DNA of 64,000 nucleotides from Picocystis sp. L7 (taxonomy: Eukaryota > Chlorophyta > Picocystophyceae > Picocystales > Picocystaceae): the NCBI GenBank assembly GCA_020975725.1, contig QXJR01000007.1, positions 769,246-833,245 of the forward strand, in the 5' to 3' direction. The translations under genes were made by a program, and so were the position numbers. Shown one piece after another: positions 37,816 through 64,000 of the stretch. The first letter of the stretch is position 1. The number at the start of each line of letters is the position of its first letter. The notes below the pieces were generated by a model. The model made no database searches. It was not told the DNA's origin and saw only the letters and a program-made list of their open reading frames with translations.

Positions 37816-38259
37816 TTAGTCCTGGCCCTGCATCCGCCTAGGGACATGGCTAAGGAGGACGTCCCAGTGAGGGGAAGGCAAGGGCCTTCCTTGGGCATCC
37901 GAGAATATTCCCTCATGCCTCCCTAGTACCTCCTGGTAGGTAGCGAGATGCTGCAAGCGAGGGAACCAGGGAGCCTTTGGCCAATGCGGAGTGATCATGG
38001 TCACAAGGGCTCTAGGTTCGGCCTCCAGCTTGCCTATCACGGAGTCAATGAGGCAACAGGGTGGGTGTGCCCATAGGTTGCCAAGACTAGCCCAGTCTTG
38101 GGCGAGAGCATTGGTCTCCCGTGTAAAGAAGGCCGGACATTGGGCATTGTTTGGCGAGGCAAACAAGTCCCAAGTGAATGGCCCGAATATAATTGAGAAC
38201 CTCTCAAAGGCCTCACGATTGAGTGCATATTCCTCATCGTCGAAGGACAACCTCGGCAA
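37816..38259 (-). mobile_element. DIRS-like retrotransposon remnant (RNase H region)
   Basis: The 147-codon minus-strand frame contains FGPFTWDLFASPNNAQCPAF, then DWASLGNLWAHPPCCLIDSV and a TPHWPKAPWFPRLQHL end. This succession (DLFASxxNAQ, then WAxPPxxLI, then PxWPxAPWFP) is typical of the RNase H/C-terminal region of DIRS/PAT-like tyrosine-recombinase retroelements. No reverse transcriptase or recombinase is seen next to it, so this is a fragment. Surrounding sequence to 38300 shows no terminal repeats. Confidence 0.6.
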
Positions 38260-40349: not shown

Positions 40350-40665
40350 TGTTGAAAGGATCTGCTGTTTAACCGCAAGGTTAACAGGCAGCGTTGGAGG
40401 ACCTGGGTTCGTGAAGGTCCTTGGGAGTTCGGAGCACGGAGGTGCACGGAGGAGCGAGGTTGGAAAGAGTGTGTGGCATGCATTCAAGGCGTGGCCCCTT
40501 GGGCCCTAATAGCCGCCACAATGCCTACGTGGCATTGTGGATAGGGTATCCTATCCACAGCCGCCGCCGAACGTGCGGCTGTCCTGGTCGGAAGGGACGA
40601 CCTGCACGACCAGTCCCATAGAGAATAAACTCCATAGAACTGGTCCTGTACTTAACTTTTCAATA
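40350..40665 (-). repeat. copia 3' LTR
   Basis: 316 bp, apparently identical to 45069-45384. It is the 3' LTR because the element is transcribed leftward. Confidence 0.93.
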
Positions 40666-43600
40666 CTCTCCCTCAGGACCTGTTTCATTGCTTGTTAACT
40701 CAGGTAACTGCACAAGTCCAATCTGCTTAACACTGGCACCAAATTTCTGAACACTGGTGGGTTTTGTGAGGAAATCTGCCAACATTTCTGTTGTTGGGCA
40801 ATATTTGAACTGCACCTCACGTCTCATTATCCTCTCACGGACGAAGTGGTGAGCAATGTCAATATGTTTTGTCCGCTGGATGGACTTAACATCATTCAGC
40901 ATCTTGATGCAGGCCTGGTTGTCACACTTCATGTTAACAGTGTGAATTTTGCCCCTGGAGTTAAGTCCGTTAATTAACCTCTTCAGCCAGAGGGCTTCTT
41001 TGACTGCTGCTGCTGCTGCTTGGTACTCTGCCTCTGCTGTGGAGGTAGATACGGTCTTCTGCATTTTGCTCTGCCAAGAGATTAAACTCCCATTCAGGAA
41101 GAATAGGTAACCTGTCCTGGATTTCCTTGTTAACTTGTCTGCTCCATAGTCTGCATCACAGTAACCAGTGAGGTTAAAGATATCAATATCTGCATCGAGA
41201 TCTTCTGAACTGTCATCGATACGATTTCCAAGAACCAGGCCCAGGTCCATTGTGCCTCTCAAGTACTTGAGCACTGACTTTGCTGCATTCATGTGCTCCA
41301 CACTTGGCTTGTCCATGAATCTTGACAAATGTGACACTGCATGACACAAATCTGGCCTGGTGGTGGTGGCCAAGTAGAGTAGTGAGCCCATGAGCACTTG
41401 GTAGGATTGTTGAGGGGCTGCAGGTTCATTCTCTAGTGCAGTAAAGTGGTATTCCAGAGGTACCTGCTTAACCCTGCAGTTTTCCATGTTGAACTGCTTA
41501 ATTAACTGCCTTATCTTCTCAGGCTCACTGAGTGTGAGGGTCCTGTTTTTTCTGTCCCTGTGAACCACCATGCCACAGAAGAAACTCACAGGTCCTAGGT
41601 CTCTGGCCTGGAATCTCTTGCAGATGCTCTCAATGACTTCTTCAATCATATGGATATCTTCTGCTGCAAGGAGTATGTCATCCACATAGATGCACAGGAT
41701 GCACTCCTTGCCTGTTTCTTCGTTAACTTTCTGTAAAATAGTGTCCTCCACTGGGTTAACTACGAATCCCAGCTCTGTAGTTAACATGTTGATGAGGTGG
41801 AGGAACCAGAGTCTTGGAGCCTGTTTCAGGCCATACAAACTCTTGTTGAGTTTGAGAGCCAGATGGCTGTTTCCATCTAATTCTTTCCCTTTGAGTCCAT
41901 CAGGTATCTGGATGTAGATAGGTTCATCCAATTCTGCATTTAAGAAGGCAGTTTTGATGTCCACCTGCCTGATTTCATAGTCCTTCAAGGCTGCATAAGT
42001 TAAGTAAACTCGCTGGGTTACCTTACCAGAGGTGGGGGCAAACACCTCCTGGTAGTCCAAACCCTCACGTTGCTCGAAGCCACGCACGCACAGGCGGGCT
42101 TTGTAGCGCTCCACGTCGCCACCACCGTCGCGTTTCACCTTGAAGACCCACGTGGTGGTGAGGGCCTTGCGTGCTGGAGGAAGCTCGGTGAGCGTCCAGG
42201 TCTCGTTGGCCACCAGCGAGGTAAGTTCTTCGTGGATGGCTTCTTTCCAGAGGTCGGCGTCCGATCTTCGCATTGCGTTTGCGAAGCCTGAGAATTCGTC
42301 GCTGACCATCCAATCGTCCTTGCAGGTGGTCTTCAAAGCTTTGCTGGAGCGAGGACGCAGGTTGTACCCATGCGTTGGGTTTGCTGGAGGTGCTGGACTG
42401 GCTGCTGGATTGGATGCTGGAGGTGAGGCTGGAGCCTGCAGCTGCATTGCTTGCTGGATGCCATGTGGAGATGGTGAAGAAGGTGCTTGAACATGCTGAG
42501 CACCTTCTCCATCATCTAGGATGCCTGCTGGATTGTCGTTTTCGCTGCTGCTGGACTGCTGAAGGCGTTGCAGGATTGCCGGAGTAGATTCTGGATTGCC
42601 CGTAGTTTGGGCAATGGCTTGGTTGGGTGGTGAAGAAGGTACTTGGCTTTGCTGAGCTCCTCCTTCATCACCTACATAACCAGGTTGAACAGGTGGAACC
42701 TGCTGGAGGGTTGCTGGTGGTTGCTGGCGAATGGACTGCTCGCTGCCGAAAGTTTGTGGAAATTCTGCACCTGCAGAATACACGGGACTCCTCTCCCCGT
42801 TTGGTGATCCCATAAGGTCCAAAGCGCTTGGATCCTGTGGAATCACTGAACCATCTGGACCGTAACTGGAGCGGAGTTCGGAGAGCTGAAGCTGCGGAGG
42901 CTCAGGGAAGAGTTCAGGGAGGACCTGACCTTCCAAATCTTGCTGACTTTGATTTGCTGCAGGTCCAGGAGTGCTCTCCACAAACTCCACATTTCTGCTG
43001 AGCACAATTTGGTCCTTTACAAGGACACGGTAAGTTGAGCTGTTTTCATAGCCCAAAAATGTTCCCTCGACTGACTTTGGTCCGAACTTTCCAATGCGTT
43101 TTTCTGCAGGTACGAGCACCCAAGCCTGACAACCGAATGTTCGCAGGTTGTCTAGGCTTGGTTGCTTGTTGGTCAGCAATTCAATTGGGCATTTTCCTTC
43201 TACTGATGCCTTCACGGGCAGTCGGTTTCGAAGGTAGTTGGCACATCGGATGGCCTCTCCCCAGAAGGTACGAGGCAACTTGGAGGACAGCAGCAACGCA
43301 CGCGCACTTTCGTTGAGTGTGCGGTGCAATCGTTCTGCTGCATTTTGCTGTGGTGTATACCCAGCAGTTGTTTCATGGGCTATGCCCTTTGATTGTAAGA
43401 ATTTTTTGAGTTCAGCATTCACAAACTCTGAACCTTGATCCGTTCGCACGGCTTTCACCGTCTGACCTGGGGAAACCTTTTCAAAGGTGTGTATCCCTTC
43501 CATGAGTGCACCTACCGCACTCGATTTGTTCGGCAGCAAGTACACCTGACTTGCTTTGCTGCCTTGGTCATAGATGGAGAGGTAATATCTGTGACCAGAT

Positions 43601-45057
43601 ATACTTTCTACCTCCATGGGACCTACCAGGTCAGCATACAAAAGGTTAAGTGGGGCATATTTGTATCCACTGGGTTTGTATGGTTTACTGCACTGTTTGG
43701 CCTGTATACAAGGGGTACAGGGGCAATCCAGTTTGTGGGGTAGACCCAAGAGCCGTAGTTTTTCCTCGCTGGCATGCCCCAGTCGTTCGTGCCAGAGTTG
43801 CGCTGGGGCAGAAAGGGCGAAAACGTTTCCGGGGCACAGGGGGGCGTCCAGGACCCTTCCTGCCAAGGAGATTCGACAGTGACCCTTCGAAAACTGGAAA
43901 TCGGCACCGGCTTCCATGGCTGCCTTGACCGAGATGAGGTTGTGCGCCAAACCAGGGATGAACAAGACATTCAGCAGTCGAATGTTTGTTCCATCTGGAG
44001 TTGTAATATGAACTGTCCCCTTGAATCGACTCGACAGCACAGTCCCGTCCGCGGTCATGATGTCTGAGATATGAAGGTCCGTGTTCCCTTGTTCAAGGAG
44101 ACCCAGATCTCCTGTCATGTGATAAGAGGCTCCTGAATCAATGATCCAGGGCTGAGATGGACCTCCTTCAATTTTGCTGGTGGTCTTGAGCATATTGCTG
44201 GCCTGATTGACCATAGAAAAGGCCATTCCATCGCAAGGGCTGTTGGTATCCAGGGGCGGTGTGTCGTTGAGACGGTCATTGGCTGTGGTGGTCAACAAAC
44301 TTGCTGCCTTCTCCCTTGCCCGTTTCTCTTGAAGTTTGTGGCAGTTGTCAACTGTGTGACCTTGCCTCTTGCAGTACTTGCAGAAAATCACCCTGTCCAG
44401 TGGTGAGGAGGTCTGTGAGCCACTATAGAGGCTCTTTGACCTGGAATTATGCAACTCATGCCGAATGAGTGCGTTTCGCACGAGATCCACGGTAGGTTCG
44501 ATGCCGTTGTTCTCCAGGACAGTGCACACAATATTGTAGCTTGGTGGAAGCCCAGAAAGAATGGCAATGGCCACAGCGGAGTCCGTAACGGGATTGCCGG
44601 TCTCCCGCAACATGTTGGCCAACTCCATGGCCCGGTTCACGTAGGACTCGATGTCCTCCACATCAAGTTTCCGAAGGTTGTGAAATTGCTTTTGAAGATA
44701 GATGGTTTGCTGAATAGACTTTTGTCTATAGAGATGCTGAAGCTTTGCCCACACTTGATGTGATGTTTCGCAATCGATCACATGTGGAAGGAGCTTGTTT
44801 GACACTCGAAGCAAAATTTTTGCTTTTGCTTTGGAAACCGAACTGAAATTCAATTTGTCTTGGTCGGTGAATTGAGTGGTGTCATCAGTGGAGTACACCG
44901 GTTCACTTTGAGTAACATCCCAAAGGTCAGAAATGACCAAGTTTGATTGCATGCGGACGGACCATGTGGTCCAATTGTGAGAGTCCAATTCTGGGACTCC
45001 GAAGTTGTCCACCATTGAGTTTGACATGGCTTCTGATCTCTCTTGGTGAGGCTTCAA
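40660..45057 (-). CDS. copia Gag-Pol polyprotein, intact
   Basis: One 1,465-codon frame carries all copia modules in order: a Gag helical region (NWTTWSVRMQSNLV early), a CCHC zinc knuckle (CKYCKRQGHTVDNCHK), an aspartic protease (WIDSGASYHMTGD), a GAG-pre-integrase HHCC-like segment (LWHERLGHASEEKLRLLG), an integrase core (VRTDQGSEFVNAEL and ETTAGYTPQQNAAER with D, D and E), a proline/glutamine-rich linker, reverse transcriptase (TWVFKVKRDGGGDVERYKAR, then CIYVDDILLAA) and RNase H (SRTGYLFFLNGSLISWQSK, STAEAEYQAAAAAVKEALWL). Integrase before reverse transcriptase defines the copia order. No stop or frameshift interrupts it, so it is probably competent. The last few codons run into the 3' LTR. 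Confidence 0.96.
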   Translation of the reverse strand: MKPHQERSEAMSNSMVDNFGVPELDSHNWTTWSVRMQSNLVISDLWDVTQSEPVYSTDDTTQFTDQDKLNFSSVSKAKAKILLRVSNKLLPHVIDCETSHQVWAKLQHLYRQKSIQQTIYLQKQFHNLRKLDVEDIESYVNRAMELANMLRETGNPVTDSAVAIAILSGLPPSYNIVCTVLENNGIEPTVDLVRNALIRHELHNSRSKSLYSGSQTSSPLDRVIFCKYCKRQGHTVDNCHKLQEKRAREKAASLLTTTANDRLNDTPPLDTNSPCDGMAFSMVNQASNMLKTTSKIEGGPSQPWIIDSGASYHMTGDLGLLEQGNTDLHISDIMTADGTVLSSRFKGTVHITTPDGTNIRLLNVLFIPGLAHNLISVKAAMEAGADFQFSKGHCRISLAGRVLDAPLCPGNVFALSAPAQLWHERLGHASEEKLRLLGLPHKLDCPCTPCIQAKQCSKPYKPSGYKYAPLNLLYADLVGPMEVESISGHRYYLSIYDQGSKASQVYLLPNKSSAVGALMEGIHTFEKVSPGQTVKAVRTDQGSEFVNAELKKFLQSKGIAHETTAGYTPQQNAAERLHRTLNESARALLLSSKLPRTFWGEAIRCANYLRNRLPVKASVEGKCPIELLTNKQPSLDNLRTFGCQAWVLVPAEKRIGKFGPKSVEGTFLGYENSSTYRVLVKDQIVLSRNVEFVESTPGPAANQSQQDLEGQVLPELFPEPPQLQLSELRSSYGPDGSVIPQDPSALDLMGSPNGERSPVYSAGAEFPQTFGSEQSIRQQPPATLQQVPPVQPGYVGDEGGAQQSQVPSSPPNQAIAQTTGNPESTPAILQRLQQSSSSENDNPAGILDDGEGAQHVQAPSSPSPHGIQQAMQLQAPASPPASNPAASPAPPANPTHGYNLRPRSSKALKTTCKDDWMVSDEFSGFANAMRRSDADLWKEAIHEELTSLVANETWTLTELPPARKALTTTWVFKVKRDGGGDVERYKARLCVRGFEQREGLDYQEVFAPTSGKVTQRVYLTYAALKDYEIRQVDIKTAFLNAELDEPIYIQIPDGLKGKELDGNSHLALKLNKSLYGLKQAPRLWFLHLINMLTTELGFVVNPVEDTILQKVNEETGKECILCIYVDDILLAAEDIHMIEEVIESICKRFQARDLGPVSFFCGMVVHRDRKNRTLTLSEPEKIRQLIKQFNMENCRVKQVPLEYHFTALENEPAAPQQSYQVLMGSLLYLATTTRPDLCHAVSHLSRFMDKPSVEHMNAAKSVLKYLRGTMDLGLVLGNRIDDSSEDLDADIDIFNLTGYCDADYGADKLTRKSRTGYLFFLNGSLISWQSKMQKTVSTSTAEAEYQAAAAAVKEALWLKRLINGLNSRGKIHTVNMKCDNQACIKMLNDVKSIQRTKHIDIAHHFVRERIMRREVQFKYCPTTEMLADFLTKPTSVQKFGASVKQIGLVQLPELTSNETGPEGEY
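40666..40675 (-). other. copia polypurine tract
   Basis: On the minus strand GAGGGAGAG abuts the TATTG start of the 3' LTR, as expected for plus-strand DNA priming. Confidence 0.75.
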
Positions 45058-45068
45058 GGCTCTTAACC

Positions 45069-45384
45069 TGTTGAAAGGATCTGCTGTTTAACCGCAAGGT
45101 TAACAGGCAGCGTTGGAGGACCTGGGTTCGTGAAGGTCCTTGGGAGTTCGGAGCACGGAGGTGCACGGAGGAGCGAGGTTGGAAAGAGTGTGTGGCATGC
45201 ATTCAAGGCGTGGCCCCTTGGGCCCTAATAGCCGCCACAATGCCTACGTGGCATTGTGGATAGGGTATCCTATCCACAGCCGCCGCCGAACGTGCGGCTG
45301 TCCTGGTCGGAAGGGACGACCTGCACGACCAGTCCCATAGAGAATAAACTCCATAGAACTGGTCCTGTACTTAACTTTTCAATA
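45069..45384 (-). repeat. copia 5' LTR
   Basis: 316 bp, apparently identical to 40350-40665. Its promoter would fire leftward, away from the neighbouring phosphatase gene, but its far edge lies 69 bases upstream of that gene's ATG. Confidence 0.93.
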
Positions 45385-47191: not shown

Positions 47192-48227
47192 GCCTCCGTC
47201 GCGTGGGCGTGGTTCCCTCAACGACCCATCCAAGAAATCGTGGGTGCTACTGTCCCCGTGAAACGGACCCTAGCCAGGGAAGGCTGTTAAGATTGTTTCT
47301 CCTCTTAGTGTTAACTTCTGTACTCCTCTCACCGGTTGTGACGTGGTTGTGAACTGTTTCGCAATTTGTCTTTCGCTACTACGTGTGTTGTTTAATAGTT
47401 GTTTCTGTCCTTTCTTTAGTAGTACAGACCAAAGGAATCAAGTTAGGATGGTTTGGTTGCTGATAGGGGAATGGAGATGTGAAAGTGGTGTCTTCGTCAA
47501 AGTTCAGAATTACAAGTCATGCACTACGCTCTATAATAATCGCAGATGTTCGATTCCATCCAATGCTCTTGCATTAGTATACTTGACAGTTTTCGACAGT
47601 GGAATGTCGAATTCAATTGTTTGTTCGCGAACAATGTTGTTCGTCACTTCTCATGCCATCGTCAACGATCCACGTGCTGAGCTGGTGGTCGTCCCCTCCA
47701 TCCCTTTTGCAGGGTTGGTCTCGGAGGAGGAGCTGCAAACCCTAAACGAATTAACATTCGTTTCAACAGAGGCAATCCACTCGATGGAAATCTCACCTTT
47801 TTGGTCAACGTGGGTACAATGGAAGAAAACCAAACGGGAAATGTTCCCATATCAAGCTAGCTATCGATGGAATGAAGAGCAAACGTTGATAGCTCGCTGA
47901 ATGGAGAAGCAAGGGAAGAGATTACAGCAAATGATTGCCCTTCCGTGCACACGAATTCCACTCAAATCCGTTTCGAGCCCTGTTGGTTCAATCGCTATTC
48001 TTCTGCTTGAAGTGAGTACAACGGATGCGGGTAACACTTTCCGTCCAAGAGGGAGCTTGACAACCAAGAACGATGGTCCACCTTTAACTGTGTGAGTAAA
48101 GCAAAGTCGGAAGCAAGTGTAAGCGTACCGGAAAAGGCACTAGCGATGCCATCCGAAAAGTCCCTAGGGCGTGGAATGTTTCCAAGCACGAAAGCGATAG
48201 GGCAACTCTTTGGAATTCTTGCCAATG
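47192..48227. other. 1-kb stretch between ClpS and the gypsy element
   Basis: No gene is recognised except that the last ~130 bases (about 48100-48231), read on the minus strand, continue in frame with sequence on the far side of the gypsy element, so they are the left half of an interrupted open frame. Confidence 0.45.
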
Positions 48228-48231: not shown

Positions 48232-49332
48232 TGTTACAAAGTGTCCGTGAGGAGCACTTTTACACACGTTTCGCTCTGATGAGCTTCGAGCTTCCACGGG
48301 CGAAGGTGGGAGAGGCCGGTTGGGCCTTGAAGCGATTCCTTTCTTGTTCTCGCAAAGGGGGGGGGTCTTCGGCTCCCTAGCAAGAGGGACACCGCGAGAA
48401 AGCTTCCGGTGGTCTTCAAGAGCAGTTGGCGTGTGAAAAATGGCGCGCCAAGCTCGTGGGAGAGGCGACATGGCTCTCGATGGTCAAGCAAGTTCTCTCT
48501 ATTTCAAGGCAAGGGTGGCTCCCTAAGGGCCACCATAGGAGGGAGCGCTCCAAGCGGAGCTCCCTCTCAAACCAGCGGTTGCTGGTGGTCACGTGGACCC
48601 CGCGTCCCGATCGGACGGTTCAGCACTGAGCTTGTGATTCACCGAATCTATCCGGACAACATCCTCACCCTTCGTTGTCCCTTGAAAGATTCCGAAAGAT
48701 TCGCCCGTTGCTAGGTCCCTTTGTTGTCCGAATAGTCTTTCTCAGTGGGTTTTGGGTGAGAGAGATCGATAATTATCACCAGTAATTCACTACCTAGTAT
48801 TACAGTTCAACTCACGAGCGTGTGAGTCACAAACCAGGTTCCAAGTTTGACTATACGTGTGTTCCAACGGTTCCAGTTGCCGTGCTCTTCAGGTCTTCTC
48901 GTAGGCTCACGAGTCCAACACAGCAGCAAGCGTCCACACTTCTCTCTACCAATCCCTTCTGACACTCCACTGGAGTATATCAGGTGGGGGGCAGTGCAAC
49001 AGTCCCATGCACTACAAGCTACCTACCACTGCAGTCTTCTGTGACGGGGTGACCCAGTCCCTTCGATCCCTTCCGAGACTCGAAACCACCGGGGTGGGAG
49101 TATCTTCTCCGAACTGGGGTGACTCGAGTGAACCATCATGATTGTACCGAGATACAGCCAATTGACTAACACCCTTTCAGTCCCGGTTCTCCCGGGCAAT
49201 TCGTCGACTAATCGAGAGATTAGTCCGGGGGGATGTCCAATGAACTGATCAGCAGTTGGGGTCTTGTGTCTAACTGCTAGTGGTACAAAGAAGAGCATGG
49301 CTTCAAAGGAGTCAGGCTTACCCGGCGTAACA
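48232..49332 (-). repeat. gypsy 3' LTR
   Basis: 1,101 bp, almost identical to the right copy; TG...CA ends on either strand. Confidence 0.95.
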
Positions 49333-49342
49333 CTCTCCTGGC
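49333..49342 (-). other. gypsy polypurine tract
   Basis: On the minus strand AGGAGAG directly precedes the TGTTACG start of the 3' LTR. Confidence 0.65.
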
Positions 49343-49359
49343 TCCTGGCATTCAGCTCA

Positions 49360-52300
49360 TCATAGCTGAAAGTCATAGACATAGGTCACAGGATCGTAGA
49401 GCATACCCTTGACATGTTGCCCGCTGTACGATTCTGTCTTTCCATCTGTCCACATTACTTCCAATTGTCCTCCACTGTCATTGGTCTCCACTCCCTGATA
49501 GTATGCAGATTTGTGATCTCCCATGTGGAAGAACTCCTGTACCACACAGCCAAGCAGGTTTACTGGCATAGTCACTTTGGGCCTGCGTCGGGTTTGGTAC
49601 GGCAGTTTCGCGTAAGTCCAGGTGTTCACCATTACAGGTTCTGGCGATTGGAGGTATACTGTTTTCTTGTGTGTCCTGACAGCATCATAATTAGTTGGGC
49701 TGATGCCCTGCTCAGGTATACATCCATTGTTTTCTTCGAGCGGTAAGAATTCCTCCAGCAGGGTGGAAGTTTCATCCACCCAAAAGAAGCGTTGCGATGC
49801 ATCAGCCAGGTTGCTTTCAATCCAGTAACGTACGGGGCGCGTAGGAAATACAGAGTAGTCCCGTAACAAGTATCGTCGAATACGATAAGCGGCGGCTTCA
49901 TTTTGCATGGCTGCACTATCCGGTAGCGGCGCCGTAGCAGGCTGCGTATGCTCGTCCATGGGGAAGAGAGTAAGATCTGAATCTACCCAATGTTCCAATC
50001 TGTTGGCATGGATACGGTCTGAAAAGGAAGAGCCTGGTGGTAGGTCCAGTTGGTAGGCTCCATTCTTCAGCACTTTCTTGATGAGGTAAGGACCTACAAA
50101 GTAAGGGTCCAATTTGTGTTTGTCAGTGGGTCCCTTGAGCCCATACTGAACTTTTACCTTGTCACCCACAGCAAAGACCTTCTTCGGTCGGTGCGCCGTT
50201 GCTTCAGCCACTTTCTGTGCAGCCTTCAACAGATTCTCCTGCACAGCCTGATACACCGTGCGGTGTTGTTCCAGCAAGGTTGTAAATCTCCTGTCAAAAG
50301 TTGTGACCGTTTGATTATCAGCAGTTCCATCCCTTCTGGGTAGTTGAAGGTGCCATGGTAACCTGGATTGGCAGCCGTACAGCAGCTCAAAAGGGGAGTG
50401 CTTGGTAGCATCATGCACGGTATCATTATATGCATGTGCTGCTGCTTGCAAGTACTGATCCCAATGATGTTTGTCAGCACAAGTTGTTCGGAGGGTCTGC
50501 AGCAGCGTACGATGTTGCCGTTCAGCACCACCTTGTGACTGCGAGTGATATGGTGTCCCCGTAACATGACGGGCACCCAACGCTGCGCAGAATGCTTGGA
50601 ACAGCGCTCGATAAGCCGGTCCATTATCTGTATGGATATGCACAGGTGTGTGAAACCTGTAAATTAAATTGTCCATGAGACATTGAGCTTGTCTATGAGC
50701 ACTCCAGGTGGAATGGATGGGTATATAGATAGCATATTTGGTAAATCTGTCCACTACTGTCAGCACTGCGTTGTGACCCAGAACTGTAAGGGGCAAGTTC
50801 TCCACCATGTCCAGCACCACTGTGTGGAATGGGTAAGGGTAAAACCTCATCTCAGGACAGAGTGGTATGTGTCGCAACCGGTTACCTGGTTTCTGAAGCT
50901 GACAGGCAGGACAGCGAGCGACGAAGTGCTCGATGTGCGATCGAATCCCAGTCCAGGTGAAATGTCGCTTGGCGTCTGCGAGCGTACGGGCTGATTCAAA
51001 GTGTCGATGATCGTGTACCATGTGCAGCAACTCCTGTCGTAGAGCGTTATCTGCTGGTACCACCAAAACTGGTTGAGCGTTTGTCGATTGATCGAACAGT
51101 AAACCATCGCGAACAGTTGTGCCCTCCGGCGGTGCGTCCAGTAATTTCTGGTAGTCAGGATCCGCTTGAGCGGCGACGCGAATTCTGTCCAGTATGGGAG
51201 GTAACTGACCAGTAAGACCTGTACGCAACGATTGCGCTGATTGCTGATCTGTAATAGACGCGATTGACCCACACACAGTCCCAGCAGGACTGCGGCCGGC
51301 TAGCAGTCGAAGCGTCCGTGTGTTGTTCAGCCATCGGTGTAACATGTGTGCAATCCAACCCATGGGGAAGGCGTTGCCGCACATGCGCTGCCGGCTGGTT
51401 TCGCTGACGTTGAGCGCTGCAGTGTCACCAACCTGCATACCGACGAGTCTTTCTCGCTCGCTGATGGTCAGCGGGCGTAGAGTCCCATCTTGATCGTGCA
51501 CCCAGGTGGAACGTGAACGGTCGCTGTGCGAGCGTTCGCTGGCCATTAAAGTGGTGCACTTCAAGCGGGGTCGATTCAATGCGTCTAGCGGCACCTTTGA
51601 TCCAGGTTCTAGGCAATCCTGCCAGGTCATAGGTGTTGCCCCCCTGTGTTCAGGCTCATGCTTGAAGGGTGGTAGAGAGGTCCAGCACAGCCGGACTCGC
51701 GCTTGCGCACAATACTTTGAGAGGTCTTCGCATATGGGCTCTCCAAACCAGTGTGCAATCTTGTCCAGGTGGGTCTTCAAGTGCGCCGCAAACGGCGTGC
51801 ATTCCAATATGTAATCAGGCGATCGCAACCGTTCGTATATTTTTGCTACTGCTGTGAACAGTTCGCGCGTATCGTACAACCCAAGCGGCGGTTTCGAGGG
51901 ATCGGTGTTCGCCCTCGAGAATGGCTGACAGGGCACCCCAGCAATCAGCAGGTGGACTTGGGGGAGCTTCCGTCGATGCGCCAAGGCGGTCACATCGTCT
52001 CCATAGCGAAAGATGTCCTTACGTGTAAACAGGCCAGGCCGTGCCAAGCGAACCTGATGAAACACGCGTGCGATCACGCTGCGGCAATCCTGGTTCTCTT
52101 CCACTGCGATGTAATCCAAAGTAATGTTGCTTGATTCTGGTATCGCATGTTCCAGCGCACGCAAGGTGGTTCCCATACCTGCACATAAGTCCAGAATGCA
52201 GTACGTATCGGTGTCGTTGACCTTGGCTGAGTGCCTGGAAAGGTAATCAGGTCCAACATTCTCTGTGCCTGGTCTGTACTCCACCTTGAACGGGGCGAAG

Positions 52301-54351
52301 TAAGCCAGCTTTTCGATCCATCGCATTTCGCGCGGTGACAACTGCTCCGTAGCCTTTGTTCCAATGAACTGACTGGCCTTGTTGTCAGTGATGACAGTAA
52401 ACTGCTGGCCAAACAGGATGTGTCTCCAATGCTGCAGTGCATACAATATTGCACAGGTCTCTTTCTCAGCAGGATGATAGTTTTGCTGAGCTGTGTTGAA
52501 TTTCTTGGACCAGAACTCCACAGGATGCCAATTCCCTTGCTGGTCCTATTGCATTAAGGCTGCTCCCATTCCCACATCTGAAGCGTCGGTTTCGACCCGT
52601 ATAGGTCTGTCTTCATCGAAAAGCGCTAGTACAGGTGCTGTGGTCAGCGCTTTAATCAGTTCTTGATAGGCATCCTCCTGGGGCTCCTTCCAGTAGGATG
52701 CGAAGCCGTGCTTCAGGGCTGCTTGATTCAATTCTGTCAACGGGGCCGCCCGTTCCGCGTAGCGAGGAACGAATCGCATGTAAAACTGGCAGAGTCCAAG
52801 GAATGCCATGTTTTCACGCTGCGTGCGAGGACGCGGAAACTGTTTGATCTTGGACAGCAGGTGATCCGTGCACGCGAGCTGACCGTTGCGAATGCGGAAC
52901 CCAATCCATTCCAGTGTACTCATGAAAAAGTGGCATTTGGACCTTTTCAACCTGATATCGGCACGATCGCAGGTGGCAAAGAACTCTTCAAGATGTTTGA
53001 AGTGTTCTTCAACTGTTTCTGAGTGGACAAGGATGTCATCCATGTACACTTTTAGGTACAGTAGATGACCAAACACCCTGTTCATCATACGTTGGAACAT
53101 CGCGGGTGCGTTTGCTGCCCCCATGGGCATCACCTTCCATACAAACGAACCGAATGGGGTGACAACCGCTGTCTTGTCGATGTCGTCAGGGTGCATACGG
53201 ATCTGGTGAAACCCATCCAGGGCATCAAGCGATGAGAAGTACTTGGCTCCTCTGAGGTTTTGTAAGTAATCATCGATCCGCGGCAGCGGATATCTGTCTT
53301 TGATGGTTACATTGTTCAGCAGGCGATAATCGAAAACGACTCGCCATCCCCCATCCTTTTTTGGGACCAGGATCACTGGGGCACCCCAACTGGATCCTGC
53401 GCATAGGTCCATCTTTCCAGCCTCAACATACTCGGTCACCAGCTCTTTGAGGGCAGTCTGCTGTTGGGGGGATAACCTATAATAATTTCTGTATTGCGGA
53501 GTTGCTCCTTCCTCCACCTGGATCTTGAATGTTTCGCCCAGGACACGTTCCGAAGGCAGTTCTGTACGGGGCTCGAATAAATGCTTATACTGCTTGTTCA
53601 ACAGGTCATCGAGCCGCTGTCGATGAGCGTCGTCCAGGGGCCACTCATCGCTAACCTGGCTGTGCATGCTGCCAAAGTCTGAGTCTTCGCTGATGAGTTC
53701 CGGCGTTTTGTCCACAGGCTGAATCATGAGGAGTAGGCAGCCAGGCTTCTTCACCGCTTTACGTGCTTCGCTCCTGGGCACGATCAGGTCCAGTTTTCTT
53801 GAGGCAATGAACTGGTGGTCTCCGTAGACAGTAAATTTTGTGCCATGGTTGTCTCGCAGCACCATGCGGTGATTCTGCCAGTCCAGTGCTGTCAAGTGCT
53901 TATGACAGAATGTGGCTCCTAGAATACAGTCAAATGTTTCTAAGGGAGCAACTCCGAAGTCGATGCTGGATTGGAATCCATCGATCGAGAATCGAGCCTT
54001 TATTACTGGGGCAGTGTGAACCTGCTGGCCCACAGCCACGCTGTAATTGAAGGCTGTTGTTGTATACTGCCAGGACAGACCCTTTGGGTTAGCTTGCTGC
54101 AATTCTTTGAAGAGGCGTTCGCTAATGAAGCAGTAACTCGCTAGGGTGTCCAGGTAAGCTTGCGTTCTGACTTTGTGTGGTTTGTTTCCAAAGTAGGTTT
54201 CAGCAGCCAGGAATTCATGTCTAGGCCTGTCATTGGTGAGTGAATGCAGGCAGACTGGATTCCCATCCTTGGTAACCGGGGCGGCTGCAGGTTTCGCTCC
54301 CGGCTCCGTCCCGGCAACCGTAGTTACCGGACGGAGGGTCTTCAGTTTTTT
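49360..54351 (-). CDS. gypsy Pol (PR-RT-RH-C5 methyltransferase-IN), -1 frame, one in-frame TAG
   Basis: The frame is entered by -1 slippage at 54351-54345. It begins with KKLKTLRP, then a protease with DTLAS in place of the usual DTGAS. Reverse transcriptase shows WRVVFDYRLLNNVTIKDRYP, FSSLDALDGFHQI and VYMDDILVHS. RNase H starts at RVETDASDVGMGAALMQ, where a TAG (52546-52548) occurs, and continues HPVEFWSKKFNTAQQ and ITDNKASQFIG. A complete cytosine-5 methyltransferase follows (52203-51328), then the integrase HHCC finger (HDHRHFESA..., CPACQ) and its catalytic core (VLDMVEN, HTDNGPAYRALFQ, GGAERQHRTL). After the usual KVKVQYGLKGP/GPYLIKKVL post-integrase domain a ~200-residue extension ends with a possible Tudor-like module. 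The protease Gly-to-Leu change is odd. Confidence 0.93.
51328..52203 (-). other. Cytosine-5 DNA methyltransferase domain embedded in gypsy pol
   Basis: About 290 residues contain the C5-MTase motifs in canonical order. Motif I is ILDLCAGMGTTLRALEH (SAM binding). Motif IV is IAGVPCQPFSRAN with the Pro-Cys nucleophile (Cys codon 51930-51928). Motif VI is ILECTPF, with the catalytic glutamate but Cys-Thr instead of Asn-Val. Motif VIII is CAQARVRLCW (QxRxR). Motifs IX-X are RPLTISERERLVGMQ and RQRMCGNAFPMGWIAHML. The target-recognition stretch between VIII and IX is short, ~65 residues. No accessory CXXC, PWWP or BAH domain is visible. The layout with GNAxP is closer to bacterial Dcm/Dnmt5-free single-domain enzymes than to plant MET1 or CMT. 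Confidence 0.93.
52546..52548 (-). other. in-frame TAG inside gypsy pol at the RT/RNase H junction
   Basis: Context ATG CAA TAG GAC CAG. Conserved RNase H sequence continues immediately after it in the same frame. Confidence 0.88.
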
Positions 54352-55607
54352 GGGGCACCCATTACGGATGCCATTTTACAGGCTGCCTGGTCATGGCCGT
54401 AACGGCGGCAGCGCAGACACAGTGCATGTGCCAGGCACAGGTCCTTCTCTTCTGGAGACAGTTTCGCACCAAGGGGCTTGCTGGCCAGTTTGGTCTGCAC
54501 CTTGACAATAGAATTCTTCTGGTCTTCATCCAAATCATCAAAGCGCTTACGCTGCCGTTTGGCCGGTCCACTTCCACTGGATCCGCTGCCGTACTTCGTC
54601 GATGGGAGAGCGGCGGCCACTGCTGCTGTTGTCCGAGGAACAAAGCTCCGCTGAAGCTCCCGATTGCGACCGATTGTGGACTGTGGTTTCCAGGTGCTTG
54701 GTGACTGCCTCGTGTCCTTTCTGAATCGATCGTTCTCCTCCCTTTCCAACTTGAAGATGATGGCAGCAAGGTTCCCAGGCTCCATGTCAGGAGCCTTGTC
54801 CACTTCAACCAGGTGGTCCAGGTGCTTGTAGAGTGCACCTTGCAAGTAACTTGGGAGGCCATGCTGAAGACGGGCAGATATGTCATGCTCTGTGAGTGTG
54901 CGGCACACTGGTGAGGTGCTCACATTCACCACAAAGCTCAGTTGTACCAGCCTGTTGAGATACTGGAGAACATTTTCTGTCCGCTTCATACGGGCAGTAT
55001 GAAACTCGCGCCACGCCTCGGGACCAGGGTCTTGGCTTTGGAAAGTCTTGCGGAGGTACCGGTACAGGTCCTCTACGGACGCGAGGGAGGCTGGGTCCCG
55101 CATGATCAGATTTTGGACCGTGGCTTTTGCGGTGCCAGCGAGGGCTTGATTAATGGCCAGGACAAGTTGTTCCATTGGCCTATTGAAGGCATAAGCTTGA
55201 CACTAGCAAAGAACATCCCTATACCAGTAGGTGAGGGCATAGGGGTTGTCCTCGAGCTCGAGACCGGTGAACTTGTCCGGTTTCTCGAGCGACACCTTCG
55301 ATATGTTCTTCGAATCTTGAAGGGCTGTACCATATAGACTTATCAAGTGCGGCAAACCTTCACGCTCTGATGGAACCATGTCCATCAAAGCTTTCGCATC
55401 CGCTTCCGCTTGGTGAACCCCTTCGGTAGGGTGCGTTCCTTCTTCGCCATCAGTTTCTTCAACTTCCATGGCTTCCGATGCTTGAAGTTCTTCAACAAGT
55501 TGCTGAAGCTCTGCAACTTTAGCTTCTAGAGACCTCTTTTGGTCTCTTTCTTGCTCAAGCTCCCTTCGTAGGGTGCCCATGCGGGTGGCATGGTCCCCTT
55601 CCTCCAT
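54342..55607 (-). CDS. gypsy Gag, interrupted by one in-frame TAG
   Basis: The ATG at 55607 starts MEEGDHATRMGTLRREL, a coiled-coil segment rich in Glu, Gln and Leu. It is followed by an acidic linker and the KPDKFTG...NPYALTYWYRDVLC segment, where a TAG occurs (55203-55205). The same frame continues through the capsid region (DLYRYLRKTFQSQDPGPEAW, EFHTARMKRTENVLQYLNRL) and a CCHC knuckle, CLRCRRYGHDQAAC. It ends TGA at 54342, three bases after the slippery heptamer. Without the TAG the protein would be about 420 residues. Confidence 0.88.
54345..54351 (-). promoter_or_regulatory. -1 programmed ribosomal frameshift site (A AAA AAC)
   Basis: In the gag frame the codons read CCA AAA AAC TGA. 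The heptamer A AAA AAC is a classical X XXY YYZ slippery site, the gag stop follows at once, and pol lies precisely in the -1 frame. Downstream sequence is GC-rich (GTCCGGTAACTACGG and on) and could form the stimulatory structure. Confidence 0.8.
55203..55205 (-). other. in-frame TAG inside gypsy gag
   Basis: The frame is open for ~134 codons before and ~287 codons after this single TAG (context TGC TAG TGT). Confidence 0.85.
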
Positions 55608-55653
55608 TCCGTGGTAAGCAAGCGAAGTACAAACAAAGCTCAAGCTTCGACAG

Positions 55654-56753
55654 TGTTACAAAGTGTCCGTGAGGAGCACTTTTACACACGTTTCGCTCTG
55701 ATGAGCTTCGAGCTTCCACGGGCGAAGGTGGGAGAGGCCGGTTGGGCCTTGAAGCGATTCCTTTCTTGTTCTCGCAAAGGGGGGGTTCTTCGGCTCCCTA
55801 GCAAGAGGGACACCGCGAGAAAGCTTCCGGTGGTCTTCAAGAGCAGTTGGCGTGTGAAAAATGGCGCGCCAAGCTCGTGGGAGAGGCGACGTGGCTCTCG
55901 ATGGTCAAGCAAGTTCTCTCTATTTCAAGGCAAGGGTGGCTCCCTAAGGGCCACCATAGGAGGGAGCGCTCCAAGCGGAGCTCCCTCTCAAACCAGCGGT
56001 TGCTGGTGGTCACGTGGACCCCGCGTCCCGATCGGACGGTTCAGCACTGAGCTTGTGATTCACCGAATCTATCCGGACAACATCCTCACCCTTCGTTGTC
56101 CCTTGAAAGATTCCGAAAGATTCGCCCGTTGCTAGGTCCCTTTGTTGTCCGAATAGTCTTTCTCAGTGGGTTTTGGGTGAGAGAGATCGATAATTATCAC
56201 CAGTAATTCACTACCTAGTATTACAGTTCAACTCACGAGCGTGTGAGTCACAAACCAGGTTCCAAGTTTGACTATACGTGTGTTCCAACGGTTCCAGTTG
56301 CCGTGCTCTTCAGGTCTTCTCGTAGGCTCACGAGTCCAACACAGCAGCAAGCGTCCACACTTCTCTCTACCAATCCCTTCTGACACTCCACTGGAGTATA
56401 TCAGGTGGGGGGCAGTGCAACAGTCCCATGCACTACAAGCTACCTACCACTGCAGTCTTCTGTGACGGGGTGACCCAGTCCCTTCGATCCCTTCCGAGAC
56501 TCGAAACCACCGGGGTGGGAGTATCTTCTCCGAACTGGGGTGACTCGAGTGAACCATCATGATTGTACCGAGATACAGCCAATTGACTAACACCCTTTCA
56601 GTCCCGGTTCTCCCGGGCAATTCGTCGACTAATCGAGAGATTAGTCCGGGGGGATGTCCAATGAACTGATCAGCAGTTGGGGTCTTGTGTCTAACTGCTA
56701 GTGGTACAAAGAAGAGCATGGCTTCAAAGGAGTCAGGCTTACCCGGCGTAACA
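55654..56753 (-). repeat. gypsy 5' LTR
   Basis: 1,100 bp, almost identical to 48232-49332. It drives leftward transcription of gag-pol. Confidence 0.95.
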
Positions 56754-56757: not shown

Positions 56758-57010
56758 GTGGGACTTAATAAACCATCCGAGCCAAGTATGTGGCCAAAGA
56801 AGGCTTGTTTCTTGTAGTCATGGAATTCTTCTTGCAATGTTTGCATGTCATCTTTGTAATAATAGATTTTGCAACGAGTGCATTGGATTTGTGCGTTTCC
56901 ATCAAGATCGCAACAATATGAGAAAGCAATCCCTCTCGACGAGCTCGCCTAAATAATGTTGTCGTTGAGGGGTGCACCATGCTCGTTGTATTTGCAAGGC
57001 GAGCATACGA
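56758..57010 (-). pseudogene. open frame interrupted by the gypsy insertion (unknown protein)
   Basis: Read leftward, the frame SYCCDLDGNAQIQCTRCK then YKDDMQTLQEEFHDYKKQAF and LGSDGLLSP runs up to the duplication. Across the element it resumes in the same frame at 48231 (HWQEFQRVALSLSCLETF and on) to a stop at ~48091. The Cys-x-x-Cys pairs suggest a zinc-binding module, also hinted at in another frame near 57000 (VCSPCK). The family is unknown and it may itself be transposon-derived. Confidence 0.4.
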
Positions 57011-59145
57011 TTTCACGCATGATGGAAGACATTAACCATGCTAAAAGCAAGAATATAAATGCATTGAAATAAGCAAGGAAGTCGCTTTGACACCTAGTAC
57101 ATATTTAATTGAATTTGGTAAGACAAACAAGCTTGGAAGTGTGAAGCCGACTGGCTGGCCGACGCCATCCAAAAAACGAACATCATGGAAAGACTAGACG
57201 ACGAAAGGGTATACGAGCCCGACTTGGTCTTTGGAAATGCTGAGCGACCATGGATCCCCTCACGCACTGGAACGGCCAGCGAGGCCTACTACGGTCCCTA
57301 TGAGACCCCAGTCTACAGGACTCGATCCTCAAGGCCCCATATGGAGAAAGGGCAATGGTGTCCCTTTGGATAGAATAGAGGAATTCGATTTTGGATCTTA
57401 TTAGAAGTAGAGTACGATAAAATAAGGGATCCATATGCTACATTTTCGACTCCTGTACGGTCCCTGCTCCATAAGGTACTCCTGTTCGTTTGTGGCGACT
57501 TGTTGCATAAGGCAGTGGCCTCCTCCTGTGAACGAGGCCCACCAGGGTCCGTCGAGACCCTGGCTTACGGGTCCGAACCACTAGGGCTACCCAGCTAGTA
57601 AGGGATATGATACCCCATTGGAGTACAACGGCCATATCAATCCGGGATCAGAACCAGTTTTCCCCGAGGCGTAAGGAAGCACGGTCACCTCGATCAGAAC
57701 GGGTTTCCTGTAAGGGGAACCGGGGACTTTGATCGAGACAGACCGAAGGGAACCAGCCGACCCCGTCCCAATCCACAATTGTGAGGGGTGGGCCTGAGGG
57801 GGCTGAACGGTGTCGAGCAAGTGACAGCTCACAGTCGCCCCGGGGCGAGCAAAATGGACGGTCAGGTGTGACTTAGAGGAGGACGAAGGCGGATAAGACA
57901 CCCCCTTTGCTCCAATTCCAACCGCCAGTGAGAGGCGGTGAGAGAGGTAGACCTATCGTCCCTCTTTGCTTTGCGATAGGTTTTGACTTTGCCAACCACC
58001 GGCGCGCCTCCTTCCGTCCTCCCTCGACGACTTGCTAAGGCCTACGCGCTTGCCCAACCACCAGGAGGTCGACCTCGCTAGGCACCACGCCTCGAGCCGG
58101 TTAGAAGGGGACTTTGTCCGCGAGTGCGAGGACCCTCGCCCAAGACCGGTGCACCGGCTCCTTCCCGACACACGCTCTCCTCCAAGGCACGTGTGTGAGT
58201 GTCCAAAACTCACGGACGCTTTGGCAACAGGAGCCTAATGGTCCACGAACGACCACCTCCACTCCAAGCGCTTCTTCCCCTCCTCTCATCTTCCGACACT
58301 TGTTCCTGTGCTTCTTTTCCATCTCTCGAGCGTTTCAATCCCCTCGTTCCGACCTTCTCCTGCTCTGTCCATGATTCCACGCGTGGTGTGACGCACCAGA
58401 TGCGTCTTCCTGGTCGGCACCTTCGTGGTGTATCCCCACGTGAACCCAGTGAAACCCGGGTTACGGGGGTTGTTTTCGCATGGGGGGCCCGATAGGGGGG
58501 GACTAGACCGATGTCCGAGATGTGCCTATCTGGGGAATCGGCCATCCCACAGTCCCTCATGCCGGGATGTTTCCAACCGTCCTATTAAAAATCACGAAGC
58601 CTATTTGCATTTTTCAGGCACATCCACCCCCCCAATCGCAATCGCAAAAACTTTCGTCCTCAACGCCCGAGGAGCCGCTAGGAGAGCTTGGCCCTTGGCC
58701 GCCTTGGGCAAATAAGGCTTGGAGCGACCATCCCCTGTGCGTGGCATCTCTAGGACCTCTCACGGGACTTTGTAATTGAACCACAACCTTCCAGAATCCA
58801 GCTCTCAAGCGTGCTCCCGTTCTCCGCGCGATTGAACCAACCACTGTGCTCTGCCTCACGACAATAACCCTCAACCAAGCGCGATGCATGGCAAACTGTT
58901 GCGCAAGCTACGAGGCGGAAGCACTACGATAGGCCTCACTGGCCATTGCAAACTCTGTGTAGGGTATCCAATTCCATTTTCCGCGATCGGGTCGATGTGG
59001 GGGCAGGAACTCAAACTGGCTCCATTACATTTGATGTCTTCAGCCCCTCCTGGAAGCGGAGGGCTTGGCGGTCGGAACCCAACAAAGGAGAGGATGCTGG
59101 AGCCCGTCTCACCAAGTTTGATAACTCCCACTCACATCAGACGGA
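57011..59145. other. 2.1-kb stretch, no gene recognised
   Basis: Short frames only. The part from 57420 to 57910 has long minus-strand frames with a repetitive, transposon-like feel but no recognisable domain; the part from 57950 to 58900 is GC-richer, also without recognised content. Confidence 0.35.
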
Positions 59146-60090
59146 TCAGTTGCATGCGGCTCCCCAGTCAGGCTGCTTTGTAGTTTCACCCGCGAATCCA
59201 GTACCTGCATCAAAGTTGGTTGGCTCTGGAGAAATCTGTGACACACACCAACCGGACAGGTCTTGGTCGAAGCTGCTGGCACCAGAGAACATGGCATCCA
59301 TGTTGGTCACTTGGCTGGTGTCCCAGCTCCCAATGTCTTGGTCAAAGCTGCCGGCCTCGAAGAACATGCTTCCCATGCTGGTCACCTGGCTGGTGTCCCA
59401 GCTCCCAATGTCTTGGTTGAAGTTACTGGCCTCGTCGAACATCTCCTCCATGTCGGTCACCTGGCTGGTGTCCCAGCTCCCGATGTCTTGGTCGAAGTTG
59501 CTGGCAGAAGCGAACATGCCAAGCATGTTGGTCACGCTGCTGGTGTCCCAGCTCCCAATGTCTTGGTCAAAGCTGCCGGCCTCGAAGAACATGCTTCCCA
59601 TGCTGGTCACCTGGCTGGTGTCCCAGCTCCCAATGTCTTGGTTGAAGTTACTGGCCTCGTCGAACATCTCCTCCATGTCGGTCACCTGGCTGGTGTCCCA
59701 GCTCCCGATGTCTTGGTCGAAGTTGCTGGCAGAAGCGAACATGCCAAGCATGTTGGTCACGCTGCTGGTGTCCCAGCTGCCGATAGACTGATTGAAACTG
59801 CCTTTGAGGTAGAACAGTTCACTCATGTCCGTGATCCCGGTCGTGCACGTACGGGCGAGTTCGGGATCGTTTTCGTCATCGTCGATCAAGGCATCCAGGC
59901 CGGCTCTGTCGCGTTTCGTGTAGGTTATCCCGTCCACCACGCCGGTTTCGCCCACGTCCGCGTCGGGACACAGTACGGTCACGCCATTGGCGGCCCGAAA
60001 AAACAAGCTCGGATTATCTCCTGCGAAGGCTTGTTGGAGGCCCGTTCCGACGAGCAGGAAGAGGGCCAGGAAAGAGGAAGACGTGGCCAT
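59146..60090 (-). CDS. Secreted BspA/DUF285-type leucine-rich repeat protein
   Basis: The 314-residue product starts with a clear signal peptide ([24 protein letters not shown] cleavage region). After a short N-terminal domain it runs through about nine ~25-residue repeats of the BspA/DUF285 type with consensus [20 protein letters not shown], ending with a Trp/Cys-containing cap (LSGWCVSQI). Such repeats are common in bacterial and mycoplasma surface proteins and recur, patchily, in microalgae; they are thought to mediate adhesion or protein contacts. A block of three repeats (~75 residues, 225 bp) is present twice in tandem and is identical or nearly so, indicating a recent internal duplication. 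The gene lies between transposons and the terminal satellite. Function here is unknown. Confidence 0.88.
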
Positions 60091-60207
60091 GGCGGATGCG
60101 TGGTGTGGTGGCGCGCGACCACACCGAACCTTCCTGGGCTTCTTCGACGGCGCAACACCTGGGCGGCGGGAAGAAGGTGGAAATGGGGAAGGAGGCAGGG
60201 GGATGGA

Positions 60208-60670
60208 TTCGTCGCCAGTAGGGGGAAGATTTCCACATTCCTCCACAATCTTGCCGGCTGGGAGGGAGGGAGAGGGAAAGCGACGTGGAGAGAGACCCCG
60301 CGGGATCGAAGGTGGGGTCGGGGGGTGGGGCGCCCCGATTCGAGAAGGATAGGTCTGCGCTGTCCTCCCCACCTCCCCCTCGAAGGACAGGGATGGACCG
60401 TGTTGGGGAACAGGAGGAAAGAGGGGGACTACTCGCGGTCCGTCGGATAGGAAGGGTGGATGGGTGCAGGGTGAGGGTTCAGTCGCCATTGCCTTCGGGG
60501 CGAGATTCGAAGAATCTGCGGTTGCCCATCCTTCTCGAGTCGGGGCGCCCCACCCCCCGACCCCACCTTCGATCCCGCGGGGTCTCTCTCCACGTCGCTT
60601 TCCCTCTCCCTCCCTCCCAGCCGGCAAGATTGTGGAGGAATGTGGAAATCTTCCCCCTACTGGCGACGAA
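60208..60670. repeat. Long inverted repeat (two 143-bp arms, 177-bp spacer)
   Basis: Arms 60208-60350 and 60528-60670 are reverse complements with a single noticed mismatch (CCCGATTCG versus CCCGACTCG). They start ~118 bases upstream of the BspA-type gene and would fold into one long hairpin. No terminal target duplication is evident outside the arms. Confidence 0.92.
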
Positions 60671-61178
60671 CGGTTTATCTATTTGTAGCCTGGCTACAAA
60701 TTAGCCAGTTTTTTCCTCTGCGGGATCAACCACCGTCCGTTCCATTCGAACCAAACAGCGAGGAGTAAATATACACTTTTGAACAAAAACATGCAGAGGA
60801 ACAAGGATTCCTCCTCGTGTCTTCGAAATATTCGCTTGAACGATTCACCGATTCATCGATCGCCTGTCTCGAAAGCGACAACTGCCGCAGAGCGATTCCC
60901 GCTCCATTGTGAGGCGAAGGGGGGGCACCCTTGGGTCTCACCGGAGGACAAGGAAACGACCAAGCCAAAACAACCAAAGGACTCATACATTGATCGACTT
61001 GCTGAGCCATTTCCGACGACTTTCCCGCCACAGACCACCGCGAAAGAACGCGAACACAGCCGGAAAAAAGAAGACGCACGTCGATCAACACGTCTCGGCA
61101 GCCTGTTCACACCCGCCAGCAGCAACCGAAAAGACAGCAGGCGCCGACCGTGGGTGTTGTTGCGGGCTGCATTTGCGA
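60671..61178. other. unique sequence between inverted repeat and satellite
   Basis: No gene is recognised. A short palindrome, TTTGTAGCCTGGCTACAAA, lies at ~60680-60702. Confidence 0.4.
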
Positions 61179-63396: not shown

Positions 63397-63513
63397 AGTT
63401 AAGAGCCACCTTTGAAAGTTGGTTGGAAAAGAGTTAAGGAGGTTGAGCTGGAGTGTGCTGTAAATGTGGTAAATGACTTCATCTTTTCAACAGCTGCATC
63501 TGCTATCCTTGAA

Positions 63514-63927
63514 CTACTTGTGAATCTCCGTACATGGCCTCCGCCTTTTTTGCTGTGGTCTCCCCTTGCCACGTACCGATGGAGGGTTTAACATTTGGCA
63601 TGCTCCTTGCGCATGGATTGGAACGTTAGGGGGTGACCCAAGCGATGAGTGTTTTTCTACTATGGTGGCGGCAAGTTTGTCAAGTTCCCTTAGTACGATA
63701 TCGGTAGTGCTTGCATCATTCACACATGATGCCAGCTCACATACATATTTGGCCTTTTGTTGGATTGCTACATAAACTTGTTCTTTTGTTTGCAATTCTT
63801 TCTCTCTAATGGCCAATAACTCAACATTTGGAGCATTGCTTGTTGAGTAAAAGTCTTTATATGCATTCAATGTTCGTTGGTTGCATTCAAGCTTCCAATT
63901 TTCATTGAATTCATCACCTTTGAATGA
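63514..63927 (-). pseudogene. Transposase-like C-terminal fragment truncated by the telomere
   Basis: The minus-strand frame runs from the telomere junction (about 63927) to a stop at 63514. It ends with MLNPPSVRGKGRPQQKRRR, which resembles the NPxxVxxKGRPxxKR tail of MULE/FAR1-type transposases. The upstream part (ELLAIREKELQTKEQVYVAI, LRELDKLAATIVEK) is helical, as in that region. Everything upstream is replaced by telomere repeats. Assignment rests on the short basic tail, so it is tentative. Confidence 0.4.
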
Positions 63928-63938
63928 GAAGGGGGGGG

Positions 63939-64000
63939 TTAGGGTTTAGGGTTTAGGGTTTAGGGTTTAGGGTTTAGGGTTTAGGGTTTAGGGTTTAGGG
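63939..64000 (+). repeat. Telomere, TTTAGGG repeats
   Basis: A partial TTAGGG followed by eight perfect TTTAGGG units runs to the last base of the window, preceded by an eight-G run. The orientation marks a right-hand chromosome end of Arabidopsis/green-algal type. Confidence 0.98.

Follow-up and report, generated by a model that had tools for sequence, protein, structure and literature searches.

A DNMT3-like cytosine-5 methyltransferase domain within the Pol of Ty3/Gypsy retrotransposons of the green alga Picocystis sp. L7

A Ty3/Gypsy retrotransposon of the green alga Picocystis sp. L7 carries a DNMT3-like C5-cytosine methyltransferase (MTase) domain inside its Pol, and we favour, at a rough probability of 55%, the reading that this MTase belongs stably to Pol (in the order reverse transcriptase (RT), RNase H, MTase, integrase (IN)), is made in Gag-Pol, is packaged and methylates the element's own cDNA de novo. 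Its position, copy number, conserved catalytic residues, purifying selection, membership of one MTase clade and predicted DNMT3-like fold are documented at the level of sequence; from position and selection, together with the activity of the DNMT3 of a dinoflagellate element (SymbioDIRS) in yeast, we infer travel with Pol and methylation of cDNA. The features of the element within the window, the whole stretch of 64,000 nucleotides analysed, are as follows.

48232..56753, minus strand: whole LTR retrotransposon of Ty3/Gypsy type, 8,522 bp, with an LTR pair ending in TG...CA, GGTC at either outer flank and frames for gag, RT, RNase H, MTase and IN
55654..56753, minus strand: 5' LTR, 1,100 bp, the same as the 3' LTR in 1098 of 1101 aligned columns
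54342..55655, minus strand: gag frame, assigned by position, no Pfam match, in-frame TAG at 55203-55205 in this copy
52546..54375, minus strand: RT frame, RVT_1 3.4e-36, closing in the window copy at an in-frame TAG (52546-52548)
52297..52542, minus strand: RNase H, matched part in the 1061-aa frame, PF17917 8.6e-23
51328..52203, minus strand: DNMT3-like C5-cytosine MTase domain, 292 aa, Pfam DNA_methylase E 4.1e-8
52168..52191, minus strand: motif I, DLCAGMGT, SAM binding
51916..51942, minus strand: motif IV, AGVPCQPFS, catalytic Cys; PC in 75/75 and PCQ in 72/75 pieces
51790..51804, minus strand: motif VI, ECTPF, catalytic Glu kept and the usual ENV replaced; Glu in 73/73 and EC in 72/73 pieces
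51691..51705, minus strand: motif VIII, QARVR; Q, R and R invariant in 9 aligned sequences
51364..51378, minus strand: motif X, GNAFP; GN in 66/69 pieces
50887..51051, minus strand: integrase H2C2 zinc finger, PF17921 4.6e-15
50542..50775, minus strand: integrase catalytic core, matched part, PF00665 2.1e-12
48232..49332, minus strand: 3' LTR, 1,101 bp, paired with the 5' LTR

The two LTRs are direct repeats which differ by two mismatches and one gap in their alignment, bear TG and CA ends and have GGTC on each side as a short target-site duplication, while RVT_1, RNase H, H2C2 and rve follow one another in the order of a Ty3/Gypsy Pol. In the 1061-aa frame (49360-52545, minus strand) Pfam places DNA_methylase after RT_RNaseH (aa 2-83) and ahead of Integrase_H2C2/rve (aa 499-668), which bears out the preliminary description, made from the letters of the DNA alone, of an in-frame C5-MTase between RNase H and integrase. 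The same description called the element young, full-length and well-preserved; full length, by the paired LTRs, and youth hold, good preservation does not: the element is young, but the window copy is broken by two in-frame TAG stops, one in gag and one at the RT/RNase H junction. Gag is open over 437 aa in a near-identical copy on contig C13 (L062, 99% identity over the aligned 2.5 kb), and pol forms a single frame of 1,671 aa in four close copies (C13, C5:42712, C10 and C1). Within the window gag frame, CLRCRRYGHDQAAC is what we take to be a zinc-knuckle-like motif. An aspartic protease, though expected at the start of the RT frame, had no Pfam match before RT in the window frame, and relatives match weakly (gag-asp_proteas 9.6e-05 in P0024, RVP_2 1e-05 in L051); the retropepsin-like motif of this region reads DTL in the window element (54142-54150, minus strand), DSL in P0024 and the usual DTG in L051 and P0026.

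Further repeats and coding stretches surround the element. A single open Copia-like polyprotein of 1,475 aa (40660-45087, minus strand) lies, as judged by eye, about 3 kb from it, and a dispersed repeat with the translation RRCSIPSN..LVYL..FDS.MSNS was recognized by eye both at 47274-47900 (plus strand) and downstream of RbcS in L069. On the other side, a putative secreted or surface protein (59146-60678, minus strand) has 25-aa BspA-like repeats in 75-nt units, and a long tandem repeat at 60853-63486, which repeats HLAVRCRHLLSW/PTWLSDAVTCCPG and stays open simultaneously in three frames of the minus strand, is probably a satellite.

All motifs by which a C5-cytosine MTase is recognized, I, IV (PC), VI (E), VIII (QxRxR) and X, are present in the domain, and the motifs named in advance were recovered as DLCAGMGT, AGVPCQPFS, the Glu of ECTPF, QARVR and GNAFP. 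Conservation was counted over 87 domain pieces, 54 of them from the Picocystis sp. L7 genome, each motif being covered by 69-75 pieces; motif VI reads EC[TVM], not ENV, in 72 of 73. By profile, tree and predicted fold the retroelement MTase appears DNMT3-like. The prediction gives a compact DNMT3 catalytic fold with DNMT3 as best match, and the tree splits DNMT3A, DRM, phage enzymes and the retroelement MTases jointly from the rest at 95.1/97, the latter as a separate long branch, with DNMT3/DRM joined to the phages at only 36.6/77 and the host DNMT2 grouped elsewhere. A bacterial origin of Dcm/HhaI type, drawn from the PCQ motif alone, was dropped, as profile, fold and tree lie nearer DNMT3.

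The domain is abundant in the genome (20,525,659 bases, 30 contigs), where a search with it gave at least 135 matches at 49-100% identity; 15 of the 135 scored have a stop inside the domain, and in 57 the domain is free of stops and the frame stays open for 1,650 aa or more. These matches, with the motif conservation over 69-75 pieces, exclude a chance origin of the domain. A Pfam scan, host-gene rows left out, added 27 places to reach 162, a total in which the added places were read in part and at least one domain on C3 counts as two pieces. Contigs C3 and C4 hold 71 of the 162, at 34.6 and 25.2 per Mb, and 17 other contigs of known length have 1.5-15 per Mb. Sister copies with the same domain, for which a search had been proposed, were readily found: 121 of the 150 integrase zinc-finger places listed are preceded on their own strand by an MTase at a distance of 0-2.5 kb. 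Sister copies lacking it, which the preliminary description had set against its own claim, mostly fail to appear: 18 of the 29 MTase-less places among those 150 share one score, 63.1 bits, with the Dam-type element L051 among them, and the one MTase-less lineage read is a separate family, the other 11 being known by their integrase match. Proteins from other sources have the RT-RNase H-MTase-IN architecture as well, and the MTase follows immediately upon RNase H in 19 MTase-bearing polyproteins aligned side by side.

Some MTase-bearing elements stand in tandem, at G000:C4:1048782, 1055931 and 1063080 (spacing 7149 bp twice), at C11:536980 and 543585 (6605 bp) and at C3:345027 and 352051 (7024 bp), as expected of concatemers from LTR-LTR recombination. 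An MTase-Gypsy pol, 76% identical, was also encountered on a contig of a Rhodobacteraceae MAG (L063, PUNI01000121.1), which is probably misbinned algal DNA.

Four MTase types share the one genome, the window type and those of L050 (62%), L036 (49%) and L025 (36-37%), and in the sequences compared they belong to one MTase clade across Gypsy families, several of them old. L051 (G000:C4:117000-126000), a Gypsy element with a single frame of 2,672 aa, lacks a C5 MTase by the MTase profile and by Pfam; its C-terminus matches PF05869 Dam (3e-11) and also phrog_111, and this Dam part lies within the LTR, two LTR copies being identical over at least 600 bp spanning it. Dam places number 101 genome-wide, many of them paired about 8.12 kb apart (by eye), and solo LTRs of the family would bear Dam pieces as well. 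A Dam-coding remnant of the same LTR family is found in the window at 37963-38214 on the minus strand (G000:C5:807208-807459, 1.8e-12). Active Dam-type enzymes usually have [DNS]PP[YFW] where the L051 lineage reads HPPC, and its Dam may for this reason be inactive.

In the IN tree, splits at 99 and 100 flank L051 and set it between MTase-bearing lineages, and in the RT tree the two splits around it stand at 100 and 48; whichever outer MTase lineage is taken as outside, this position suggests that the L051 lineage once had the C5 MTase and lost it. At the place of the MTase the lineage has a 189-aa linker, which aligns with the MTase in register at 2.7 bits (as good a score came from 5 of 2000 shuffles and from none of 64 windows) and in a profile comparison at Prob 1.2%, E 0.042, values only suggestive of a vestige.

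Of 19 close copies that were aligned, 17 entered the estimate of selection, L007 and L013 being left out for their stops. Median dN/dS, over pairs that are non-independent, was 0.115 for the MTase (range 0.054-0.68, 111 pairs), 0.061 for RT end/RNase H (119 pairs; the divergent RT end of L011 inflates the RT range) and 0.080 for linker/IN (130 pairs). Pooled pN/pS was 0.163, 0.128 and 0.129 respectively, and within the MTase the C-terminal half (0.224) evolves faster than the N-terminal half (0.125). These ratios show purifying selection on the MTase, whose catalytic residues are conserved.

That the host is a green alga, as had been stated, follows from a nuclear RbcS, of green type on reading, and from its own MTase genes: BAH-DNMT1, a PWWP-MTase, a circularly permuted DRM and, by eye, a DNMT2-like gene and a CMT-like gene whose motifs I and IV are separated by a chromodomain-like stretch. 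The PWWP-MTase resembles ChloroDNMT as described in the available text of PMC12344493, which restricts DRM to streptophytes, unlike the permuted DRM-type gene found here (L052, G000:C20:155200-158200), whose motif IV is PCQ. Six of 18 tested EukProt proteins labelled Pavlova lutheri (P0036, P0038, P0043, P0045, P0048 and P0052) matched five host loci at 100% identity across the aligned length, the other 12 reaching 48-94%, and this haptophyte dataset seems to be mislabelled or contaminated with the green alga.

Under the favoured reading, the MTase would be made as a piece of Gag-Pol, packaged together with RT and integrase, and would methylate cytosines of the element's own double-stranded cDNA de novo, during or after its synthesis; a new copy could then arrive pre-marked, which might guard it against nucleases or deaminases or set the chromatin state of the insertion site. 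Several observations count against this. CpG in the element stands at 0.76 versus 0.96-0.99 at 1-40000 of the window, but at 0.65 at 57000-64000, a mild poverty only, and C/T differences are equally common at CT (0.033) and CG (0.034), CG thus not being singled out; to these are added the altered motif VI, the faster C-terminal half, the outcome of yeast assays with KnitGypsy-Dnmt3 (see below) and the many-copy related family without C5 MTase.

The enzyme might instead act mainly in trans on host or element chromatin, placing 5mC at or around insertions which the host's DNMT1 and CMT would maintain, and so tune silencing of the element. We hold this to be unlikely: the host BAH-DNMT1 and the chromodomain CMT-like gene could maintain such marks and copies are very dense on C3 and C4 compared with the sparser contigs, but open frames occur in copies on the latter too, and Pol, with which the MTase forms one protein, should remain with Gag particles. 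There is a smaller chance that the domain no longer methylates and has become a spacer that binds DNA or integrase. Such a fate would suit the change of ENV to EC[TVM], yet every covering piece retains the catalytic Cys and Glu, under purifying selection, in contrast to DNMT3L, which is of the inactive relic type. An RNA substrate, either genomic RNA or primer tRNA, is improbable; RNA is the packaged nucleic acid, and such a substrate is proposed for SymbioLINE-Dnmt in the accessible part of PMC5890265, but the MTase falls apart from the host DNMT2 in the tree and its predicted fold is closest to DNMT3. An assembly join or private chimera can practically be dismissed, given the 135 genome matches and the same architecture in proteins of other sources and on the stray bacterial-MAG contig.

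More tentative than cDNA methylation itself, and in our estimate doubtful, is a wider history in which this Gypsy superlineage has used DNA methylation as a working component since its ancestor: a DNMT3-like MTase would have entered a single time, where RNase H meets integrase, its source being an unpermuted DNMT3 or a phage-type enzyme and not the host DRM, and would have been kept in all families read but one, which would have lost it and has an LTR-written Dam, as if the cDNA required some DNA mark whose chemistry could be exchanged.

Candidate donors were looked for in several places. Host DRM is disfavoured, being circularly permuted and pairing with DNMT3A in the tree; since the retroelement MTase keeps the order I-X, it is no simple copy of DRM. 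Viral contigs offered nine loci at 24-36% identity, all nine read, with L053 scoring highest, and phages gave partial matches at 28-34% (5 records, and 12 of 30 among the matches listed in another search). Among 28 pattern-matching stretches of bacterial and archaeal contigs one encodes a relative, which is the stray Gypsy contig L063. These sources were likewise set aside.

Retroelements bearing DNMTs are already published, among them a Gypsy that has its DNMT3 in Pol, and the preliminary description rightly named Symbiodinium and Klebsormidium, as the available text of PMC5890265 attests. KnitGypsy-Dnmt3 of Klebsormidium nitens (de Mendoza 2018, PMC5890265), a Gypsy whose Pol frame likewise encloses a DNMT3-related C5-MTase, shares with the Picocystis element the several copies, the purifying selection (Ka/Ks of its DNMT <0.2, here a median of 0.115) and the retention of key residues. 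It differs in its host and in its repeats, DIRS-like by the legend of Fig. 4c of that paper as against plain paired LTRs with GGTC flanks, and the likeness is drawn from the published description; protein searches gave no Klebsormidium-labelled match, most matches carrying no name. Its domain gave no methylation in yeast, a result the authors call inconclusive, and the streptophyte element is a Copia in PMC12344493 and a Gypsy in PMC5890265, as far as the accessible portions of both go. The dinoflagellate SymbioDIRS-Dnmt3, which has a DNMT3-class enzyme in Pol that is active in yeast, and SymbioLINE-Dnmt likewise encode C5-MTases, but belong to other orders (tyrosine-recombinase DIRS and LINE), whereas the Picocystis element is Ty3/Gypsy with an rve-type integrase (PMC5890265, available text).

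Dam-bearing retroelements, DIRS above all (PMC5890265 and PMC6338049, in the portions available), carry a DNA MTase too, as does the L051 lineage with its PF05869 Dam; Dam is of N6-adenine type and unrelated to the C5 enzyme, and in Picocystis it sits on a Gypsy, inside the LTR. An orchid Gypsy with an AlkB m6A demethylase (PMC9289625, from its accessible part) also captured a nucleic-acid-modifying enzyme, but a different one, in a separate added ORF. With host DRM and DNMT3A-B the retroelement MTase appears to share its catalytic class, as judged from profile, predicted fold and tree; DRM is permuted, also with PCQ as motif IV, and the retroelement MTase is unpermuted, with PCQ in motif IV and EC in motif VI.

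For chlorophytes, the available text of PMC6338049 states in general terms that green algae have Gypsy and DIRS elements which encode DAM and DCM. A chlorophyte Gypsy with a C5-MTase was reported neither in the titles and abstract openings searched, subscription papers and preprints lying outside that scope, nor in the accessible parts of PMC9998398, PMC10538959, PMC11244446, PMC12344493 and PMC3145265. What is added here to the known systems is another green alga, abundant copies, one MTase clade shared by several old families, plain LTRs and a related lineage that lacks the C5 MTase and bears an LTR-encoded Dam. Retroelements armed with the enzyme class which hosts use to silence them were previously known from two lineages. 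The small Picocystis genome (20.5 Mb) has more than 100 places that match, of which 57 stand in long open frames, several old families and a complete complement of host DNA MTases; with families that carry the C5 MTase next to others that lack it, it is a compact system in which the benefit of the enzyme to the element can be studied.
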